Of a DNA stretch of 64,000 bases, positions 3,152 to 22,583 are shown in pieces. The position numbers were made by a program, and so were the translations under genes. The notes beneath the pieces are model-generated. The model made no database searches and was not told the origin of the DNA. It saw nothing but the letters and a program-made list of their open reading frames with translations. The first letter of the stretch is position 1; each line of letters opens with the position of its first letter. The DNA comes from Kitasatospora sp. MAP12-44 (GTDB lineage: Bacteria > Actinomycetota > Actinomycetes > Streptomycetales > Streptomycetaceae), in the NCBI RefSeq assembly GCF_029892095.1, contig NZ_JARZAE010000004.1, positions 4,154,001 through 4,218,000 on the forward strand, in the 5' to 3' direction.

Positions 3152-4045
3152 GTGCGGATCCAGGACGATACGCCGGACGCCGGCATGAGCAGTACGACGA
3201 GCGGACCGGCCGGTGCCGGGGCCGCCGACTCGGGCGCCGTGGTCGAGGAGGAGGACGCCGACAACGCCGGCGGGCAGCCGGGGCGTCCGATCGACGTCCG
3301 CACGCTCACCCGGGTGCTCTTCGAGCGCCTCGCCGAGCTGCCACCGGACGCACCCGAGCGCGAGCAGGTGCGGGCCGCCCTGATCGAGGTCAACATCCCG
3401 CTGGTGCGCTACGCGGCCACCCGGTTCCGCAGCCGCAACGAGCCGATGGAGGACGTCGTCCAGGTCGGCACGATCGGCCTGATCAACGCGATCGACCGGT
3501 TCGACCCGCACCGCGGCGTGCAGTTCCCGACGTACGCGCTGCCGACCATCCTCGGCGAGATCAAGCGCTACTTCCGCGACAACGTCCGCACCATGCATGT
3601 GCCGCGCCGGCTCCAGGAGCTCTGGGTGCAGGTCAGCGGCGCCATGGAGGAGCTGACGGTGACCCACGGCCGCACCCCCAAGGTGCCGGAGATCGCCGCC
3701 AACCTGCGGATCCCCGAGGAGGACGTCCGGGCCTGCCTGGACGCCGGGCGCGCCTACAGCGCCGCCTCGCTGGAGGCCGCCCAGGAGCACGAGGGCGGCC
3801 TGGCGCTGCTGGACCGGCTGGGCTACGAGGACTCGGCGCTCACCGACGTCGAGCACCGCGACATGGTGCGGCACCTGCTGGTGCAGCTGCCCGAGCGCGA
3901 GCGACGGATCGTCATGCTGCGCTTCTTCGCCAATCTGACGCAGTCCCAGATCAGCACCGAGCTCGGCATGTCCCAGATGCATGTGTCACGTCTGCTGGCC
4001 CGCATCCTGACCCGGCTGCGGACCGGCAACTCCTGGGAGGAGTAA
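3152..4045 (+). CDS. SigF/SigB-family RNA polymerase sigma factor (first of a tandem pair)
   Basis: A 297-residue group 3 sigma factor. Region 2 spans about residues 80-155 ([43 protein letters not shown]). Region 3 follows, and region 4 is about 245-290 with a helix-turn-helix ([20 protein letters not shown]). The first 45 residues are acidic and disordered. The GTG start sits 11 nt after GAGGGAGG; an ATG 11 codons in is the alternative. Such factors are usually held by an RsbW-like anti-sigma kinase and released by an anti-anti-sigma factor in stress or development. No anti-sigma gene is adjacent; an RsbW-like protein lies at 37.8 kb. The next gene is a close paralogue. Confidence 0.95.
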
Positions 4046-6095: not shown

Positions 6096-6544
6096 AGTGG
6101 TTCTCCTAAAATATCGAACAACGGAGCGGAACAAAGGGGGGGCCACCCACTCTGAACACCCCCTTTCAGACGCTTCAACCAGACAAGACTACGAACCTGT
6201 ACGTCCGATGGGACGCCTTCACAAGGTGACGGCACTCTTGACACTGTGCACGTCATATACCCGCAGGTGGCACGCCTTGTCGAGGAGAAGCTGTCATGGA
6301 CTTGCAAATCCCTGCTCAGTTAAGTCTTCCGCAACTCACAGTTGGTGCCTAACATGGCGCCGACGTGAACATATGTGACAGATTCACGGTCCCCTCACCC
6401 GTTTGGCGGCATGGCCAAGTATTTCTGCCCCACCATGGTCGCAAGTGAACCGCAGCCATTTCCGTGCGGCACGGGGGACTCAAGTGATCATTCGGGGTGG
6501 GCGAGCGGGGTCGTCTGCCCTGCTCAGGGGAGGAACACCGAACT
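6096..6544. other. Long divergent regulatory region
   Basis: This 449-bp region lies between the phosphatase and the exopolysaccharide deacetylase gene and holds no convincing gene. Its middle part (about 6160-6430) is clearly lower in GC than the coding DNA around it. It contains TTGACA at 6239-6244, though no well-spaced -10 box can be fixed. I compared it with c-di-GMP and c-di-AMP riboswitch cores and saw no match. A GGGGAGGAA ribosome site ends the region before the ATG at 6545. Confidence 0.5.
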
Positions 6545-8761
6545 ATGGGTCAAGCGACCCGTCGTGCTGCCGCCTGCGCGGCAGCAGGTCTGCTGGCAGC
6601 CGGTCTGCAGACCACAACCGCGCACGCCGCGGCTCAGAACCGCATCGACCTCGCAGTTCTGCTGGTGGACGACGGTGGCCCGGCCACCGCCGCCATCGCC
6701 GCGGAACTGACGAGTGAGGGCACCCCGTACACCACGGTGAAGCTCTCGGACCCGAACCGTCCGACGATCAACGCCGCCTTCCTCAGCGACACCCTGAACG
6801 GCGCCCCCCGGGCGAAGTTCGAGGGCGTCGTGCTGCCCAACGACAACCCCTTCGGCACCGGCTCGGCCGAGATGACCGCGCTCGCCACGTACGAGGCGAC
6901 GTTCGGCATCCGGCAGATCGACGCGTACACCTACGCGCGGCCCGACGTCGGTCTCAACTGGGCGCAGAACCCCGGGTACATAGGCAGCCTGGACGGCACC
7001 CAGGGTGCTGTCACGGCCGCCGGCACCGCCGGACCGTTCGGCTACCTCACGGGCAGCGTCCCGTTCGAGCAGCCCAACCCCGCCATCAGCACCAGCTACG
7101 GCTACCTGGCCACGCCGCTGACCACCCTGCCAGCCGGCGCCTCGTTCACACCCCTGGTGGACGCGCCGATCCCGGGCACCACCTCGCGCGGTTCGCTGGT
7201 GGGCGAGTACGCCCACGACAACCGCAAGGAACTGGTCGTCACCTTCGTCTACAACCAGTACCAGCAGCAGTTCCGGCTGCTGGCCCGCGGCATGGTCGAC
7301 TGGGTCACCCAGGGTGTCCACCTCGGCTACGACCGCAACTACTTCGAGGTCCACGTCGACGACCTCTTCCTCTCGGACGACAGGTGGAGCACGACCCTCA
7401 AGTGCACGCCGGGCGACGTCACCTGCCCGCCGAACACCAGCCCGGACCTCAACCCGATCCGGATGACGCCTTCGGACGTCGACACCCTGGTCGCGTGGGA
7501 GAAGGCCAACAACTTCACCGTCGACTTCGCCTTCAACGGCGGCGGCAGCGCGGACTGGGAGTCGGAGAACAACACAACGACCGACCCGCTGCTGACGAAG
7601 TTCCTGGCCGACCAGTCGTCGTTCCGGTTCATCAACCACACCTGGGACCACCCCTTCCTCGGCTGCCAGCAGAACGTCACCGTGGTGCCGTGGAAGTGCC
7701 AGACCGACGCCGGCGGGAACACCCTCTGGGTCGACGAGGCCACCATCCAGAGCGAGATCCAGGAGAACATCACCTGGGCCCAGCAGGAGGGTCTCAAGAT
7801 CAACCCGACCGAGCTGATCACCGGTGAGCACTCGGGCCTGGTCACGCTGCCGCAGCAGCCGACCGACAACCCGAACCTGGCCCCGGCGCTCACCGCGGCG
7901 GGCATCCAGTGGACCGGCAGCGACGCCTCGCGCGAGTTCAACCAGCGCCCGATCACCGGCAGCCCGACGCTGACGGTCCCGCGGTACCCGATGAACGTCT
8001 TCTACAACGCGGCCACCGCCGTCGAGGAGACCGACGAGTACAACTGGATCTACAACAGCACGGCCAACGGCGGCAGCGGCCTGTGCCAGACCTCGGGCAA
8101 CTCCACCTGCCTGCCGGCCCCGCTGGACGAGAACACCGGCTACACGTCGTACATCGTGCCCACCGAGACCAAGATCGACCTCGGGCAGGCGCTCAACAAC
8201 GACCCGCGGCCGCACTTCATCCACCAGTCCAACTTCGCCGAGGGCCAGATCGCGTACCCGGTCCTCAACAGCATCCTGAACACCTACAAGGGGCTGTACA
8301 ACAGCAACACCCCGCTGGTGAGCATGAGCGAGAGCAGCATCGGCAGCGAGCTGCAGAACCGTTCCGCCTGGGCCACGGCCGTCTCCAACGGCCAGGTGAC
8401 CGGCTACCGGATCGGCAACACCGTCACGGTCAGCACGCCCTCGGGCGTGCAGGTCGAGGCCACCATGCCGACCGGCACCACGCAGAAGCTGATGCTCGGC
8501 AGCACCGCGTTCGGCTCGGCGTACGCCGGCACGCTCTCCGGCTGGGTCGCTCCGGGTCCCTTCCAGGGCGCGGTCACCCTCACCCTGAGCGCGGCGAACA
8601 CCCCCACCGGTGCGGCCGTGGTCAAGGCGAAGTCGGTCAAGGTCGACTCGGCGGCGCCGAAGACGGTCGTGCCGCAGGGCGTGACCAAGGCCGTTCCGGT
8701 CAGCCCCGGCGACACCAAGCGGACCAAGGGCAAGTCCCTGGTCCCGAACACCGGCAAGTAA
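6545..8761 (+). CDS. Secreted polysaccharide deacetylase, Agd3/PelA-like (NodB fold)
   Basis: A 738-residue protein with an Ala-rich signal peptide (cleavage near TAHAAA, residue 30). Metal-binding motifs of a NodB-type deacetylase are visible: HVDDLF near residue 270 (metal and base Asp) and NHTWDH near 365 (the two metal His). RYPMNVFYN and HQSNF follow in the C-terminal half. The length and the long domain before the catalytic barrel resemble the fungal GalNAc-polymer deacetylase Agd3 (family CE18) rather than a plain chitin-type deacetylase. The tail ends in a Lys/Thr-rich stretch. It is the first gene of the exopolysaccharide block and would partly deacetylate the exported polymer outside the cell. 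The family call is by motif and context only. Confidence 0.8.
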   Translation: MGQATRRAAACAAAGLLAAGLQTTTAHAAAQNRIDLAVLLVDDGGPATAAIAAELTSEGTPYTTVKLSDPNRPTINAAFLSDTLNGAPRAKFEGVVLPNDNPFGTGSAEMTALATYEATFGIRQIDAYTYARPDVGLNWAQNPGYIGSLDGTQGAVTAAGTAGPFGYLTGSVPFEQPNPAISTSYGYLATPLTTLPAGASFTPLVDAPIPGTTSRGSLVGEYAHDNRKELVVTFVYNQYQQQFRLLARGMVDWVTQGVHLGYDRNYFEVHVDDLFLSDDRWSTTLKCTPGDVTCPPNTSPDLNPIRMTPSDVDTLVAWEKANNFTVDFAFNGGGSADWESENNTTTDPLLTKFLADQSSFRFINHTWDHPFLGCQQNVTVVPWKCQTDAGGNTLWVDEATIQSEIQENITWAQQEGLKINPTELITGEHSGLVTLPQQPTDNPNLAPALTAAGIQWTGSDASREFNQRPITGSPTLTVPRYPMNVFYNAATAVEETDEYNWIYNSTANGGSGLCQTSGNSTCLPAPLDENTGYTSYIVPTETKIDLGQALNNDPRPHFIHQSNFAEGQIAYPVLNSILNTYKGLYNSNTPLVSMSESSIGSELQNRSAWATAVSNGQVTGYRIGNTVTVSTPSGVQVEATMPTGTTQKLMLGSTAFGSAYAGTLSGWVAPGPFQGAVTLTLSAANTPTGAAVVKAKSVKVDSAAPKTVVPQGVTKAVPVSPGDTKRTKGKSLVPNTGK

Positions 8762-8846: not shown

Positions 8847-10382
8847 ATGCGCGTCACCCTGCTCACCGAGGGGACGTATCCGCACTCGCACGGCGGCGTC
8901 AGCGTCTGGTGCGACCAACTGGTCCAGGGCATGCCCGATGTGGACTTCGACATCATCGCGGTGACCGGCACCGGCACCGAGGGCCTCGCCTGGGAGCTGC
9001 CAGCGAACGTCCGCAGCGTCACCCCCGCCCCGCTCTGGGGCCCCGCGGACGACCGCAAACCGCCCCGCGGCCGCGCCCTGCGGCACTTCCTCGACGCGTA
9101 CGAGCGCTTCCTGCACGCCATCCTCGACCCGGTCTACACCACCCACTTCGGCACCGAGCTGTACGGCTTCGCGGACTTCGCGCGGCGCGGCCTGCTCAGC
9201 GCGGCGCTGCGCAGCGAGCCCGCCCTGAAGACCCTGCAGCACGTCTGGACCCGTGCCTACCTGCCGACCGCCGCCTCCCGGCCCACCCTGCACGACGCGC
9301 TGCACGCCACCGACCTGCTGGAGCACGCGCTGCGCCCGCTGTCCGTCGAGCCGCCCAGCGACGGGGTCGCGCACGCGGTCAGCGGTGGACTGGCGGCGCT
9401 GCCCGGGTTGATAGCGGCCCAGCAGTTCGCGGTGCCGTTCCTGCTCACCGAGCACGGCATCTACCTCAGAGAGCGCTACCTCGGCTACCGGACCGGGCCC
9501 TACCGCTGGCCGGTCAAGGCGCTGCTGCTCGGCTTCTACCGGATGCTCGCCGAGGAGAGCTACTCGCGCGCCGCGCTGGTCACCCCCGGCAACCGGTACA
9601 ACCGGCGCTGGGAGGAGCGCGGCGGCACCCCCTCGGACAACATCCGCACCGTCTACAACGGCGTGGACCCCGACCTCTTCCCGGCCGCCGGCGCCGAGCC
9701 CGGGACCCCCACCCTGAGCTGGGCCGGCCGGGTCGACCCGATCAAGGACCTGGAGACCCTGATCCGCGCGTTCGCACTGGTCAGGGCGGAGCTGCCGGAC
9801 GCCCGACTGCGGATGTTCGGCGGCACCGCGCGCGGCGCCGAGGGCTACCGGGACGGCTGCATCGCGCTGGCGGCGGAGCTCGGGCTCGGCGACTCGGTGG
9901 TCTTCGAGGGGCGCGTGGAGGACATCCAGGACGCCTACGCGGCCGGCAACGTGGTGATGCTCAGCAGCATCAGCGAAGGCTTCCCCTTCACCCTGATCGA
10001 GGCGATGTCCTCGGGGCGGGCGACCGTCTCCACCGACGTCGGCGGCGTGCGCGAGGCGGTCGGCGACACCGGTCTGGTGGTGCCGCCGCGCGAACCCGAG
10101 CCGATGGCCCGAGCCGCCCTGGAGCTGCTGCGCGACCCGCAGCGCCGGGCCGTCATGGGCGAGCAGGCCCGGCTGCGGGTCATCGAGCAGTTCACGCTGC
10201 GGCAGAACATCGACGGGTTCCGCGGCATCTACACCGAACTGCTGGGCGAGCAGCGCTGGTTGGCGAACACCGTGGTCGCCGTCGACCCGTTCGCGCAGGC
10301 CGTCCCGGCGCCGGTCCCGGCGCTCGGCCCGCAGCCGGAGCCCGAAGTGGGCTTCGGCTGGTGGGAGCGGGAGGCCCGATGA
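8847..10382 (+). CDS. pelF: PelF-type GT4 family glycosyltransferase
   Basis: A 511-residue cytoplasmic retaining glycosyltransferase with two Rossmann domains. The N-terminal LLTEGTYPHSHGGVSVWCDQ is the PelF signature opening. The C-terminal domain has WAGRVDPIKDLETLI and the EX7E nucleotide-sugar motif SEGFPFTLIEAMSSG near residues 375-385. PelF polymerises UDP-GalNAc-type sugars into the Pel polysaccharide, and fungal Gtb3 carries a related domain. A GGGGAGGG site lies 8 nt before the ATG. The stop overlaps the start of the next gene (ATGA), so the membrane partner is translationally coupled. There is no c-di-GMP receptor gene (pelD) or tetratricopeptide partner (pelE) beside it. Confidence 0.9.
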   Translation: MRVTLLTEGTYPHSHGGVSVWCDQLVQGMPDVDFDIIAVTGTGTEGLAWELPANVRSVTPAPLWGPADDRKPPRGRALRHFLDAYERFLHAILDPVYTTHFGTELYGFADFARRGLLSAALRSEPALKTLQHVWTRAYLPTAASRPTLHDALHATDLLEHALRPLSVEPPSDGVAHAVSGGLAALPGLIAAQQFAVPFLLTEHGIYLRERYLGYRTGPYRWPVKALLLGFYRMLAEESYSRAALVTPGNRYNRRWEERGGTPSDNIRTVYNGVDPDLFPAAGAEPGTPTLSWAGRVDPIKDLETLIRAFALVRAELPDARLRMFGGTARGAEGYRDGCIALAAELGLGDSVVFEGRVEDIQDAYAAGNVVMLSSISEGFPFTLIEAMSSGRATVSTDVGGVREAVGDTGLVVPPREPEPMARAALELLRDPQRRAVMGEQARLRVIEQFTLRQNIDGFRGIYTELLGEQRWLANTVVAVDPFAQAVPAPVPALGPQPEPEVGFGWWEREAR

Positions 10383-11893
10383 GCGGCCCGCTGCGGCTGG
10401 TCCCCGACGAGGGCACCCCCGGCTGGGCCGAGGAGACCGTGCAGCTGCGCACGCTGCCGCGCCCGCGCAGACGACCGCGCCTGGAGCAGCCGCCGACCGC
10501 CGCGTCCGAGCTCTCACCCGACCCGATCGACGAACTGGCCGAGCGGCTGGCCGACATCTGCGCCGACGCGGTGCACCCGTACGAGATCGCCGCGTTCCTG
10601 GAGTCGGACGGTCTGACGGACGAGCAGGCCGCGCTCAACTACGGTCGGCCAGACGCCTTCACACTGGCCGAGGAGCTCTTCGCCAAGGTCGGCCGCCGCT
10701 ACCCGGGGCCGCCGCCGGCGGCCGTCGACCCGTGGCGGGTCGACCCGTGGCGCTGCGCGCTGCGTGGCCTGGTCTTCGCGCTGCCGGGCCTCGGCTACCT
10801 GCTCGGCGCCGACCTGTTCGCCGCGCACCGGATGCGCTTCGGCATGCCCTCGGGGATGGCGGCGATGGCCGCGGCCACCCTGCTGAGCTGGGCGTGGAAC
10901 CAGGCGCTGGCGCACCGCGCGTACGGCTGGCTGAGCCGGCTCGACCGGCGCTCGGCAGGCCGGGCACTGGCGCTGGGCGCACCGGCGGGCGCGCTGGCGG
11001 CCGCCACGGCCGGCTACCTGCTGGGCGGGCCGCGGTCGGCGCTCTGGTTCACCGGCGGTCAGTCGGTGTACCTGGGGGCCGCGACCGTCCTCTTGGTGCT
11101 CGGCCAGGAACGGTTGCTGCTGGCCGCGTTGGCGCCTTCGGTGGCCGGCGCGGGCCTGGTGCTGGCCGTCCCGCTGCCGACCGCGGTGCGGGTCTCGATC
11201 CTGCTGGCCACGCTGGCCGGCGCGGTCGGCCTGGCCTGCCGGCAGGTGGTCGGCTGCCTGCGCAGCGAGCCGGTCACCGGCAGTTCCAAGCCGGCCGGGC
11301 ACGAGATCGCGGCGGCCGGCCTGTTCGGGCTTGCGGTCGGCACGCTGACGCTGGTGGCGGGACTCGGAGCGACGCTGCACCACGCCGTGCGCCCGACCGT
11401 GCCACCCGCGGCCGGCGGCGGCACGGGGGCGGCGATGGTCGCGCTCACGCTCAGCCTCGGCCTGGCCGAATGGCTGCTCTACCGGTACCGCAGCCTGGCC
11501 ACCGCCGCGCTGCGCACCAGCCACAGCCCCGGCGCCTTCCGACGGCGGACCGTCATGGTGCTGACCGGCTGCCTGCTCGGCTACCTGGCCATGGTCGGCG
11601 CGCTGGACCTGGCGGCCACCCGGCTGTGGCCGCACACCGCGCTGCTCGACGTACCCCGGCTGGGGGCGCTGCTGCTGCTGGCCGCCACGCTCTGGACGGC
11701 GCTGCTGCTGCAGGCGCTCGGCCTGAGCTGGCGGACCGCCGGGCTCTGCGCCGCCGCGGCCGTCTTCGAGTCGGCCACCCTGTTCACCGGGGCCGATCCG
11801 TTGCAGGTGCAGCTGTACGGCTGCGGAGCAGCCGCCGTACTCCTCTTCCTGCTCGCCACGGTCGTCCTCGGGCGCACCACCACGCACCGCTGA
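10379..11893 (+). CDS. Polytopic membrane protein of the exopolysaccharide locus (PelG-position)
   Basis: A 504-residue protein overlapping the pelF-like gene by ATGA. The first 115 residues are soluble and include a helical DPIDELAERLADICADAVHP segment. About ten hydrophobic segments follow, from LRGLVFALPGLGYLL to VLLFLLATVVLG. In Pel systems the gene after pelF is pelG, a 12-helix MATE-like transporter that exports the polymer. This protein has the right place and topology, but I do not see the PelG N-terminal signature, and the soluble N-terminal domain is unusual. It is best read as a candidate export or assembly partner of the glycosyltransferase. Confidence 0.75.
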   Translation: MSGPLRLVPDEGTPGWAEETVQLRTLPRPRRRPRLEQPPTAASELSPDPIDELAERLADICADAVHPYEIAAFLESDGLTDEQAALNYGRPDAFTLAEELFAKVGRRYPGPPPAAVDPWRVDPWRCALRGLVFALPGLGYLLGADLFAAHRMRFGMPSGMAAMAAATLLSWAWNQALAHRAYGWLSRLDRRSAGRALALGAPAGALAAATAGYLLGGPRSALWFTGGQSVYLGAATVLLVLGQERLLLAALAPSVAGAGLVLAVPLPTAVRVSILLATLAGAVGLACRQVVGCLRSEPVTGSSKPAGHEIAAAGLFGLAVGTLTLVAGLGATLHHAVRPTVPPAAGGGTGAAMVALTLSLGLAEWLLYRYRSLATAALRTSHSPGAFRRRTVMVLTGCLLGYLAMVGALDLAATRLWPHTALLDVPRLGALLLLAATLWTALLLQALGLSWRTAGLCAAAAVFESATLFTGADPLQVQLYGCGAAAVLLFLLATVVLGRTTTHR

Positions 11894-11930: not shown

Positions 11931-12923
11931 ATGAGTACTGTCGCAGTCACCGGGGCCGAAGGATTCATCGGTTCCCACCTGGTCGAGCGGCTGGTCGGCC
12001 ACGGCCACCGCGTCCGGGCGATGGTCCAGTACAACTCGTTCTCCTCGTTCGGCTGGCTGGAGACGCTGGACCGGGACACGCTCGGCTCCGTGGAGATCGT
12101 GCTGGGCGACGTGCGTGACCCCGGATCGGTGAACGGGCTGGTCAAGGGCACCGAGGCGGTCTACCACCTGGCCGCGCTGATCGCCATCCCGTACTCGTAC
12201 CAGGCCCCGCACTCGTACATCGAGACCAATGTGACCGGTACGTTGAACGTGCTGGAAGCGGTCCGGCACCTCGACATCCCGCGTATGGTGCACACGTCGA
12301 CCAGTGAGACCTACGGAACGGCACAGACCGTGCCGATCAGCGAGGACCACCCGATCAACACCCAGTCCCCGTACGCGGCTTCGAAGGCCGGCGGGGACCG
12401 CCTCGCGGACAGCTACCACGCCAGCTTCGGCACCCCGGTGGTGACCCTGCGCCCGTTCAACACCTTCGGCCCGCGTCAGTCGATGCGCGCCGTGATCCCC
12501 ACCGTGATCGCCCAACTCGCTGCCGGTGAGCGGGAGATCACCCTGGGCGACCTGCGCCCGACCCGCGACTTCATGTTCGTCAAGGACACCGCGAACGCCT
12601 TCCACACAGTGGGCACCGCGGCGGCCGAGACCGTGGTCGGACGCACCTTCAACGCCGGTACCGGCGGCGAGATCTCGGTCGGCGACCTGGTCACCCTGGT
12701 CGGCAAGCTGATGGGCGTGGACGTCACCGTCAAGGAGGACGAGCAGCGCATCCGCCCCGCCAACTCCGAGGTGATGCGCCTGGTCGCGGATGCCACCCGG
12801 CTGCGCACGGCGACCGGTTGGGCGCCCGCGCACTCGCTGGAGGAGGGCCTGGAGCAGACCATCGCCTTCTTCCGCGACCCGAGCAACCTGGCCCGCTACA
12901 AGACCGACATCTACAACGTCTGA
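11931..12923 (+). CDS. NAD-dependent sugar 4,6-dehydratase/epimerase, LegB-like
   Basis: A 330-residue extended SDR enzyme. The NAD-binding TGAEGFIGSHL is at residues 7-17, and the catalytic pieces are TSTSETYG and YAASK. The segment MVQYNSFSSFGWLE and the HLAALIAIPYSY block are typical of LegB-type dehydratases, which make the 4-keto-6-deoxy intermediate from a nucleotide-linked N-acetylglucosamine in legionaminic-acid pathways. PTRDFMFVKD is the usual C-terminal signature. It starts 37 bp after the membrane protein and is followed by a nucleotidyltransferase, so both probably supply the sugar donor of this locus. Substrate identity is inferred. Confidence 0.88.
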   Translation: MSTVAVTGAEGFIGSHLVERLVGHGHRVRAMVQYNSFSSFGWLETLDRDTLGSVEIVLGDVRDPGSVNGLVKGTEAVYHLAALIAIPYSYQAPHSYIETNVTGTLNVLEAVRHLDIPRMVHTSTSETYGTAQTVPISEDHPINTQSPYAASKAGGDRLADSYHASFGTPVVTLRPFNTFGPRQSMRAVIPTVIAQLAAGEREITLGDLRPTRDFMFVKDTANAFHTVGTAAAETVVGRTFNAGTGGEISVGDLVTLVGKLMGVDVTVKEDEQRIRPANSEVMRLVADATRLRTATGWAPAHSLEEGLEQTIAFFRDPSNLARYKTDIYNV

Positions 12924-20022: not shown

Positions 20023-22467
20023 TCACCTCCGGCGGCGTCCCTGGCCGCGACCGAGGATCCGCCGGGTGAGCAGCGTGACGCCGGACATGATCAGCAGCAC
20101 CCCGCAGCCCGCAGCCCGCCAGCCCCCGAGGCTGGTGTGACGGACCGTGGAGACCACCTCGGGCGGCGGCGCAAGCTCCCGCCGTCCAGCGGACCCGACG
20201 AAGGCGGACGCGGAGGCGGACGGGGAGGCGGACGGGGAGGCGGACGGGGAGGCGGCCGACGCCGCGGAAGTCGGGCGGGTCGACTTTGCGGGAGTGGGGG
20301 TGGGCGGCACCGACGGTGCAGCCGACGCTGACGGCGTGCCAGCAGCCGCCGTAGGGGTCGGCGTGGCGGACGGGGACGGCGTCGGGGACGGGGAGGGGGA
20401 CGACGTCGGCGTTGTGGGGGCGGGGAGGGTGAGGACGACCCGGAGCAGGTCCCCCCGCGTGGCGTTGCCCGCGCGGTCGGTCGCCGTCGCCGTCAGGAAC
20501 TGCTCGCCCGACGCCAGGTCACGCGAGGCGCGGCAGGTCCAGCTGCCGTCGACCGCCGCCACCGCGCTGCACAGCGCGCCGTCCGTCCCGGACACCACGG
20601 TCACCATCGACCCCGGCTCGGCCTTGCCCGCCACCCGCGGCCGGACCACGTGCAGCTCCTCGCCCGCCTTGGGCGAGCTGATCACCGGCTTGGCCGGCGG
20701 AACGGTGTCCACGATCAGCGGGGTGCCCCGGCCGGTCGTCCGATTGCCGGCCGGGTCCACCGCCGTAGCCGTCAGCGTGTGCGGCCCCTCGGCCAGCTCC
20801 TCCACCGGCAGGCAGGACCACGAGCGATCCGGCCGCACGGCCGTCCGGCACAGCTCGGCGCCGCCCTGGTCGGTGACCGAGACGGTCGTCCCGGGGCCGC
20901 CGGTGCCGGTGATCATCAGCCCGGGGTCGTTGGTGTACTCCGGCACCGTGAGCACCGGCGCCGGCGGCGGTGTGGTGGTGACCGTGAGCTGCACCGGGTC
21001 CCCGCGCAGCACCACCCCGCCGGTGGTGGTCTCGGCGGGCAGCACCGTGTGCGGTCCCTGCGCGAGTGGCGCGTCCGGGCGGCAGGACCAGTTCCCGCCG
21101 CCGTCCACCACGGCCTGGCAGAGCGTCAGCGCTCCCTCCTGGACCTGTACCGTCGCGCCGGCCACCCCGCTGTCGCCGTGGAACTCCGGCCGGGCGTCGC
21201 CGACCGCCGCGCCGCCCGCCGGGCTGGTGAGCTCCGGCTTGGCGGCGACCACCGTGAGCCGTACGAGTTGGTCCTCCACCTGCCCCGAGTCGGCGAAGCC
21301 GGCCGCCGCGACCAGCTGGGACGGGTCGCGGCCGATCCGCAGCCGGGCCCAGGTGTCGCCGGCGGAGACGCCCGGCGGGACCGTCCACTCCAGGGTCGCG
21401 CTGGTGGCGCCCGGCGGGATGTCCGCCTGCGCGCGTTCGACGGGGTCGAAGCGGCCGTTGCGGTCGAAGTCGATCCAGCCCGCCAGGGTGGCGGCGCTCT
21501 GGCCCGGGCTGACCGGCACGGTCAGGTGGTAGTAGCCGCCGATCGCGGCCTCGCCGGGGAAGACCACGGCGGGGTCGTTGGCCAGGTGCTCGATCCGCCC
21601 CGGCTGGAGCTCGGGCGGCACGGGCGCGGGCACCGTGGCGCGCCGGTGGTCGGGCGCCGAGCCGGCCGCGTCACTGCCCATGAACAGGTCGGAGACCATA
21701 TGCGAGGCGTTCCCGTAGCCCTGCGGCGCGCTGCCGAGCGACTCGTCCAGCGTGACGGTGTAGGCCTGGCGCAGCGCGGCGGGCGGTGTGCTGCTGCCCG
21801 CGTACGCGGTGTTGCGCTGCTCGACCCGCAGCGTCGCGGTGTCGAAGGTGCCGTCCAGCTCGATGGTGCCGGCCCGGTCGGCGGCACCGTCGCCCGAGCC
21901 GTCGGCGGAGGCGGGCGCGAGGACACCGTCGCCGGACGTCCAGCCGGACCACGGGGTGCGCGCGGTCAGCGCGGGCCCGGCCGGGGTGCCGCCGATGACG
22001 GTCAGCCGGGTGGCGGTCGCGGTACTGCCGTCCGGGCCGGTGGTGACCGCGGCCAGGCCGCTGACGTGCAGTCGGGGGTTGCGGACCGGGCGGGAGAAGG
22101 TGAGCTGCAGGGCGCCCAGGGTGCGCCAGGCGCCGTCGGCCTGCGGCCGGTCCTGGCTCAGCCGGAAGGTCTGCGTCGGCGCGCCGGGCCGGACGCCGTC
22201 GGTAAAGGCCGCGGCCGGCGCGCTGCCCGAACCGCCCGTGCCGTCCAGCGTCCCGGGCGCGGCCTCGGCACGGACGCCCGGGGAGGCCTCGAAGTCGATG
22301 CCGACGTCGAGCCCGGAGTGCAGCAACGCCTGGTGGTCGGCCGACCAGCTGTCCGGCGACTGCTGCGCCGAGGAGACGGAGGGGAGCCAACCGAGCGCCA
22401 GACCGGCGGCGAGCGCCACGGCGACGACGACCGGACGGCGGCTGCGCCGGGACGTTCTCGGGCTCAT
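20023..22467 (-). CDS. Large secreted surface protein with GEVED and Ig-like repeats
   Basis: An 814-residue protein with a Tat/Sec-type signal peptide (RRSRRPVVVAVALAAGLALG). Its middle part contains a GEVED-like domain (GWIDFDRNGRFDPVERAQA, WARLRIGRDP). Three bacterial Ig-like repeats follow, each with a Cys pair pattern (LCQAVVDGGGNWSC, LCRTAVRPDRSWSC, LCSAVAAVDGSWTC). A long Ser/Pro/Thr/Ala-rich wall-spanning stretch and a C-terminal membrane segment with Arg-rich tail (TLLTRRILGRGQGRRRR) end it. There is no LPXTG or LAXTG motif, so it is membrane-anchored. The ATG at 22467 has AGGAGGG upstream. It is probably an adhesin-like surface protein. Confidence 0.82.
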   Translation of the reverse strand: MSPRTSRRSRRPVVVAVALAAGLALGWLPSVSSAQQSPDSWSADHQALLHSGLDVGIDFEASPGVRAEAAPGTLDGTGGSGSAPAAAFTDGVRPGAPTQTFRLSQDRPQADGAWRTLGALQLTFSRPVRNPRLHVSGLAAVTTGPDGSTATATRLTVIGGTPAGPALTARTPWSGWTSGDGVLAPASADGSGDGAADRAGTIELDGTFDTATLRVEQRNTAYAGSSTPPAALRQAYTVTLDESLGSAPQGYGNASHMVSDLFMGSDAAGSAPDHRRATVPAPVPPELQPGRIEHLANDPAVVFPGEAAIGGYYHLTVPVSPGQSAATLAGWIDFDRNGRFDPVERAQADIPPGATSATLEWTVPPGVSAGDTWARLRIGRDPSQLVAAAGFADSGQVEDQLVRLTVVAAKPELTSPAGGAAVGDARPEFHGDSGVAGATVQVQEGALTLCQAVVDGGGNWSCRPDAPLAQGPHTVLPAETTTGGVVLRGDPVQLTVTTTPPPAPVLTVPEYTNDPGLMITGTGGPGTTVSVTDQGGAELCRTAVRPDRSWSCLPVEELAEGPHTLTATAVDPAGNRTTGRGTPLIVDTVPPAKPVISSPKAGEELHVVRPRVAGKAEPGSMVTVVSGTDGALCSAVAAVDGSWTCRASRDLASGEQFLTATATDRAGNATRGDLLRVVLTLPAPTTPTSSPSPSPTPSPSATPTPTAAAGTPSASAAPSVPPTPTPAKSTRPTSAASAASPSASPSASPSASASAFVGSAGRRELAPPPEVVSTVRHTSLGGWRAAGCGVLLIMSGVTLLTRRILGRGQGRRRR

Positions 22468-22583
22468 GGACCCTCCTGTGCACACGATGTGACAAGAAGG
22501 AATCACGATCTAACGTGAAGTCACCGCCGGAAATCCCCGCCGCGCCGCCGCAACCACTCATCCGGCGGATCATCCGGAAACGC

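Follow-up and report, generated by a model that had tools for sequence, protein, structure and literature searches.

The Pel system of Pseudomonas aeruginosa brings PelD and PelE together in a complex with PelF and PelG, and PelG is a protein of the multidrug/oligosaccharidyl-lipid/polysaccharide (MOP) superfamily with a 12-helix bundle (PMC13254593). Searches with PelF and PelG have uncovered pel loci in Gram-positive bacteria, some of them in Actinobacteria (Whitfield et al., 2020, PMC7112168; Bundalovic-Torma et al., 2020, PMC7112194). Homologues of Agd3 have been reported in Actinobacteria and Deinococcus-Thermus, and the bacterial operons containing them comprise the Agd3 homologue, a GH114 enzyme, a cytoplasmic glycosyltransferase (GT), and a multi-spanning membrane protein left without a name (Bamford et al., 2020, PMC7229062). 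That study also points back to galactosamine-containing polysaccharides of the Streptomyces cell wall and to an endo-galactosaminidase from S. griseus. Here we analyze a stretch of 64,000 nucleotides (nt) from Kitasatospora sp. MAP12-44 (contig NZ_JARZAE010000004.1, positions 4,154,001 to 4,218,000; hereafter the window), and in particular the membrane protein encoded by the gene following pelF, which we call MEM. In our view MEM is likely to be the exporter of a Pel/galactosaminogalactan-type operon, namely a strongly diverged PelG-type MOP protein with an added N-terminal helical domain. Operons of this type are already known; what appears to be new, as far as seen, is the prediction of what the membrane protein is, together with its N-terminal domain, its alternation with PelG, and the existence of a shortened paralogue. 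A paper naming the PelF partner of streptomycetes was not among the matches listed in our literature search, subscription journals and preprints lying outside its scope.

Conservation of the gene that follows pelF

The ATG of the MEM gene sits inside the pelF stop codon (ATGA), which bears out the overlap of the two genes noted in a preliminary description of this DNA and sets it at 4 nt. The window has a GC content of 72% and comes from a genome of 9.04 Mb. A tblastn scan of genome contigs confirmed 178 relatives of MEM, and the best 80 of these were analyzed as loci; by title, nearly all belong to streptomycetes and their near kin, and the closest named relatives of the gene among them are from Kitasatospora, with 89 and 88% identity. 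A PelF frame lies just upstream of MEM on the same strand in 78 of the 80 loci, and in the remaining two the contig starts with MEM. The 4-nt overlap itself recurs at 61 of the 78 junctions measured, with starts set by motif. Because of these relatives and of the PelF frame that accompanies them so regularly, the open frame cannot be put down to chance: MEM is a real, conserved gene.

The rest of the operon travels with this pair. Counted at a floor of 100 bits, with contig ends explaining some of the missing genes, PelF is present in 78 of the 80 loci, the Agd3-like protein in 75, a LegB-like short-chain dehydrogenase/reductase (SDR) and a nucleotidyltransferase in 68 each, a second SDR in 67, and GH114 in 63. 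All seven operon genes were found together in 49 loci, and the combination of an Agd3 homologue, GH114, a cytoplasmic GT (PelF), and a multi-spanning membrane protein in 60. The neighbouring phosphatase and aldo-keto reductase genes, which flank the operon in the window, are seen again in only 4 and 5 of the 80. Outside this group, plasmids of Deinococcus grandis and D. ficus carry a pelF-type gene, MEM (annotated there as “hypothetical protein”), an SDR, a nucleotidyltransferase, an Agd3-like gene, and GH114, the D. ficus plasmid having a further SDR between the nucleotidyltransferase and Agd3-like genes. In Deinococcus the Agd3-like gene lies downstream, whereas in the window operon it precedes pelF, and the GH114 match of D. 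grandis is below the Pfam cut-off (24.7 vs. 27 bits). A linear plasmid of S. californicus (L162:4090-13524) also bears the operon in full; a Spherulin4-family gene (12038-12700, E 1.9e-34) precedes GH114 there.

Predicted fold and alternation with PelG

Profile searches with MEM (P0001) matched no Pfam or NCBIfam family, and no sequence relative was found in the PDB, whether the protein was queried alone or as a 43-row profile. AlphaFold2, run on an alignment of 43 MEM rows (A1), returned a model with a predicted local distance difference test (pLDDT) score of 87.3 and a predicted template modeling (pTM) score of 0.80, in which a low-confidence tail (pLDDT <50 to about residue 37) and five short helices (residues 49-103) are followed by 12 transmembrane (TM) helices. 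The preliminary description had counted about ten membrane segments, which is too few, since hydropathy yields 11 and the model 12. It had also proposed a soluble N-terminal domain of 115 residues; a helical domain is indeed there, including the helical segment pointed out at the time (DPIDELAERLADICADAVHP, residues 48-67), but a confident fold extends only over residues ~46-106, and the residues before it are low in confidence and poorly conserved.

Comparison of the model with known structures leads to the MOP superfamily. Foldseek returned four PDB chains at E ≤ 0.001, all of them MOP/MATE. Among the first 22 rows, 21 carry the label MATE, MOP, MurJ, or Wzx, one (5c6n) is labelled just “protein A,” and the first row with another fold is a major facilitator superfamily (MFS) transporter at E 0.09. 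VIA-align gave Z 21.1 against human MATE1 (root-mean-square deviation 4.7, 353 aligned), Z 16.2 against WzxE (337 aligned), and Z 13.9 against MurJ (325 aligned). On this model, MEM is predicted to have the fold of the MOP superfamily, with 12 TM helices in two six-helix lobes. The fold is common to all of these proteins and the Z-score is highest for MATE, both of which would suit an independent recruitment, in which a MOP protein of, say, Wzx- or MATE-like ancestry flips a lipid-linked precursor or the polymer and resembles PelG only at the superfamily level. We regard such a recruitment as unlikely. As for the fold, no sequence relative of PelG was found in the PDB, so the search could hardly return PelG, and MATE had no such competitor.

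The partners of PelF across the phylum speak for a diverged PelG-type exporter. PF11997, the N-domain of PelF, was searched in 396 genomes drawn evenly from the phylum and matched 28, of which 26 scored above the cut-off; G244 and G265 fell below it (scoring 33 and 30 bits against the PelF of the window) and were left out. A MEM-type partner was found in 20 of the 26 PelF genomes and an adjacent PelG in five (G011, G041, G285, G341, and G383), while G295, whose contig ends inside pelF, was assigned neither; among the 26, none was seen to have MEM together with PelG beside PelF. The MEM profile matched 18 genomes, every one a PelF genome, in a count that scored four candidates per genome and may therefore contain misses (G294 and G307 were missed, and G352 may have the shortened paralogue, MEM2). 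The 20 comprise these 18, G294 (by profile, with the N-domain right after pelF), and G307 (N-domain by eye only), the last two being seen only in part; six of them have the shortened type only (G023, G107, G171, G193, G246, and G369). Another gene intervenes between PelF and MEM in G001, PelF and MEM are on different contigs in G135, and in G367 PelG stands at a contig start with no PelF match. Judging from these counts, most PelF-bearing Actinomycetota (20/26, six with the shortened type only) seem to have a membrane partner of PelF that escapes current PelG profiles.

A tree of PelF divides along similar lines. It was built from 44 rows, leaving out duplicates of five PelF rows and rows shorter than 380 aa, and was rooted at the midpoint. 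All nine PelG-partnered PelFs, which come from the phylum, Fusobacteriota, and Pseudomonadota, fall on one side of a branch supported at 99/99; the MEM group includes one PelF (L120) that no MEM follows. This PelF is a further copy in G170, and its next gene reads like a lipoprotein. In G041 and G011 (L088, L089, L100) an Agd3-like protein scoring 62-74 bits to the window protein comes right after the PelF-PelG pair, so that the streptomycete type of deacetylase is combined there with a canonical exporter.

Sequence relation to PelG

The link between MEM and PelG in sequence runs through intermediates. A PelG search of the phylum weakly matched a protein of G001 (18.3 bits, E 5.4e-4) that bears the N-domain of MEM and lies one gene away from a PelF. 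Four such proteins from other actinobacteria were aligned (A4), three of them lying on one contig near a PelF. Compared by hhalign with a set of PelG proteins (A2, 12 rows but 11 distinct proteins, L086 being part of L102), the intermediates matched over the full length (Prob 88.9, E 2.4e-6, 405 columns), and MEM (A1) in turn matched the intermediates with Prob 98.6 and E 7.6e-16 over 137 columns. As controls from the same superfamily, A4 gave Prob 6.9 against MurJ and 1.5 against Wzx, and PelG against MurJ gave 2.0; the Wzx control comprised four sequences only, and its comparison was with A4 rather than A1. MEM (A1) likewise showed no sequence-profile match to 12 MurJ proteins (Prob 0.1). 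We therefore rejected MEM as a MurJ or Wzx flippase, all three of these profile tests (A4-MurJ, A1-MurJ, A4-Wzx) being negative. At the G001 locus (L103:7609-13848, minus strand), a MEM-like intermediate next to PelF is flanked by two large proteins of 714 and 727 aa with hydrophobic stretches, which by eye resemble each other.

A number of observations weigh against a PelG-type origin of MEM. Direct comparison of A1 with PelG gave Prob 0.1, and so did a wider MEM set of 16 members (A3). PF16933, the PelG family, matches neither MEM itself nor any of its 43 aligned relatives, finds one of the 16 members of A3 (E 2.9e-4), and has no match in MEM's own genome. The match of MEM to the intermediates does not reach beyond the N-domain and TM1-2, and the choice of these four proteins was made by hand for their PelG-like look; one of them taken singly (P0013) reaches just Prob 9 against PelG, so the bridge needs the alignment. 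The motif D[KR]xxxW, present in 7 of the 12 PelG rows and in all four intermediates, occurs in none of the 43 MEM rows. The query TM-scores of the MOP rows in Foldseek are modest (0.36-0.47). A very long outgroup branch joins the tree of PelF on its PelG side, and the MEM side is supported at just 88/86. Finally, G369, which has the shortened MEM type, also has a partial PF16933 match above the cut-off (30.9 bits); this match (L092) is on another contig than its PelF and was set aside as a Wzx-like gene.

The PelG start (M)AG[IV]GF, found in 12 of 12 PelG rows (11 distinct proteins), is absent from all 43 rows of A1, as the preliminary description had seen for MEM, and from the four intermediates as well. 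MEM as a plain PelG was rejected, the direct profile tests (P0001, its 43 relatives, A1, and A3) giving this no support. It is not classed as PelG, since neither the profile nor the N-terminus agrees and the searches of the loci for PelD/PelE were negative. The missing profile match and the missing PelG motifs would also fit independent recruitment. However, the intermediates share the N-domain of MEM and give a much stronger match to PelG than to MurJ or Wzx, three of the four lie on one contig near a PelF, and MEM lacks a profile match to MurJ just as it does to PelG. The profile comparison proposed at the outset has a divided outcome, negative for the direct match, with a link to PelG only by way of the hand-picked intermediates. 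A diverged PelG-type exporter is supported by gene order and conservation, by the predicted MOP fold, by the full-length match between intermediates and PelG, and by the either-or occurrence with PelG beside PelF; the earlier alternative of a divergent PelG or a different polysaccharide exporter accordingly leans to the former.

N-terminal domain, shortened paralogue, and known systems

The N-domain is the most conserved part of MEM: its mean pairwise column identity is 0.587 in A1, where the TM part has 0.461, and 0.413 in A3, where the TM part has 0.271. MEM, the intermediates, the Deinococcus proteins, and MEM2 all have this domain, whereas PelG starts without it. In 85 loci, single-sequence phmmer searches of open frames of at least 80 aa found no PelE, with two PelE proteins as queries (the L101 one, and the L163 one named by gene order), and no PelADA-like gene; a PelD from L163 matched none of the loci, and one from L101 matched SDR genes only, in 69 loci. 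The Pfam family PelD_GGDEF had no match in 28 genomes nor in any control genome, and is thus uninformative on PelD elsewhere in the genomes. We infer that the N-domain docks PelF, and it may replace PelD/PelE in this role.

A plausible course of events can be proposed from the genes of the operon. The SDRs and the nucleotidyltransferase would supply UDP-N-acetylgalactosamine (UDP-GalNAc) or a related sugar, which PelF would polymerise in the cytoplasm while held at the membrane by the N-domain of MEM, the job of PelD and PelE in canonical Pel systems. MEM would then transport the polymer, the chain leaving through the cleft between its two six-helix lobes, and the process would be independent of cyclic di-GMP (c-di-GMP). 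Outside the cell, the Agd3-like enzyme would partly deacetylate the chain, and the GH114 enzyme would trim it.

MEM2 adds another side to this family. PF11997 is matched in 89 of 101 Streptomycetaceae genomes, and in 11 of the 12 Streptomycetaceae of the phylum draw (the exception being G352) a PelF of another type is followed by MEM2; five of these 11 also have the full MEM (G000, G128, G161, G182, and G334), and six lack it. MEM2 aligns with MEM at Prob 99.7 over 325 columns, though the first half of the membrane part is broken by long gaps, and its sequence marks it as kin of MEM. It shows 8 hydropathy segments, and AlphaFold2 gave ~8 long helices for a 365-aa slice (pLDDT 76.8, 11 rows). 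Its best fold matches are MOP proteins at Z 11.1, under the caution line of ~13 for helical bundles, where a match may come from the arrangement of the helices by itself. The copy in the genome studied here is shorter still, with four segments above the hydropathy threshold: its second locus (L085:9296-12764, G000:C4) encodes PelF, a shortened MEM-like protein of ~285 aa from ATG, and an SDR, and the gene after these reads like moeZ by eye. In S. coelicolor, SCO5179-SCO5181 adjoin moeZ, and no paper on these genes was found.

MEM2, standing beside another PelF without some four of the helices, brings up the idea that MEM has itself lost transport and serves as a membrane anchor or regulator of PelF, the polymer being exported by something else, as may be the case for MEM2. 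The higher conservation of the N-domain over the membrane part and the absence of D[KR]xxxW from MEM would agree with this idea, yet the confident MOP model of MEM still has all 12 helices, and PF16933 has no match elsewhere in the genome, other operon-tied exporters not having been searched for. We consider a pure anchor or regulator very improbable for MEM, and retain the diverged PelG-type exporter. More tentatively, and with rather less confidence than in that reading itself, MEM and its kin could be seen as a second major branch of the PelG-type exporters. A single N-terminal domain would stand in there for the PelD-PelE scaffold, and PelF and MEM would make up a minimal synthase-exporter of two proteins, no longer under c-di-GMP control. 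The streptomycete MEM2 would then have shed about four of the twelve helices and persist next to a PelF of its own as a contracted MOP protein, acting as a two-subunit transporter or, having ceased to export, as a membrane dock. MEM2 also prompts one to ask whether two thirds of the helices are enough for a MOP protein to work, or to serve some other purpose.

The genes of the window operon, all on the plus strand, are collected in Table 1.

Table 1. Features of the MEM operon, in window positions.
Feature	Position	Strand	Basis and remarks
Agd3-like secreted protein P0004 (CE18/CBM87-type polysaccharide deacetylase)	6497..8761	+	ORF (open reading frame) as listed; true start may be downstream
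PelF-type GT4 glycosyltransferase P0002	8847..10382	+	NCBIfam NF038011 PelF 165 bits (cut-off 100); Pfam DUF3492 192.5 bits
MEM (P0001), divergent PelG-like MOP-fold membrane protein	10379..11893	+	504 aa, 12 predicted TM helices; AlphaFold2, MOP fold, bridge to PelG via A4
MEM N-terminal helical domain (residues ~46-106), proposed PelF dock	10514..10696	+	Model helices 49-103
LegB / dTDP-glucose dehydratase / GalE-type SDR P0003	11931..12923	+	TIGR04180 LegB 453.3 bits, below cut-off 475
Sugar-phosphate nucleotidyltransferase P0005	13049..13867	+	PF00483 E 3.9e-37; start set at MHAVILAGG
Second SDR P0006	13864..14763	+	PF01370 E 3.5e-32
GH114 endo-alpha-1,4-galactosaminidase P0007	15038..16342	+	PF03537 E 1.7e-80; GH114 domain at ORF residues 213-430

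The Agd3-like protein of the window scores weakly on its own (Agd3_CE, E 0.26 in Pfam), and blastp aligns it with the D. ficus homologue at 25% identity (1.6e-28), which matches both CBM87_Agd3 (1.5e-17) and Agd3_CE (1.1e-12); because the Deinococcus proteins clearly match both Pfam Agd3 domains, the weaker identification in streptomycetes is supported. P0003 may supply a nucleotide sugar. P0007, whose true start lies downstream of 15038, is a probable lipoprotein, judged by eye from its sequence. Elsewhere in the window are a gene for a sigma-70 family factor with Sigma70_r2, r3, and r4 matches (3152-4045, plus strand), ~2.5 kb upstream of the operon, and a long protein that combines GEVED domains with bacterial Ig-like ones (20023-22506, minus strand).

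Set against the described systems, the MEM operon resembles the Agd3-type bacterial operons in combining their four kinds of genes, and in the accessible portions of that description the membrane protein is neither identified nor related to PelG, nor is an N-terminal domain mentioned (Bamford et al., 2020, PMC7229062). The present analysis thus provides a predicted identity for the membrane protein of such operons, in Actinobacteria as well as in Deinococcus. With it, one can test whether streptomycetes export a Pel/galactosaminogalactan-like polymer with no PelD or PelE next to the exporter. MATE, WzxE, and MurJ share the fold of MEM; MEM differs from all three in its gene company, a PelF-type synthase, and from MurJ also in the lack of a sequence-profile match. 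PelG (PF16933, EPS-E family of the MOP superfamily) shares with MEM the 12-helix MOP fold and a gene placed directly after pelF in the same direction, and its system, like the MEM operon, keeps company with galactosaminidase, epimerase-type, and deacetylase genes. MEM departs from PelG in lacking a direct profile match and the D[KR]xxxW motif, and in carrying an extra N-terminal domain in place of the MAG[IV]GF start.

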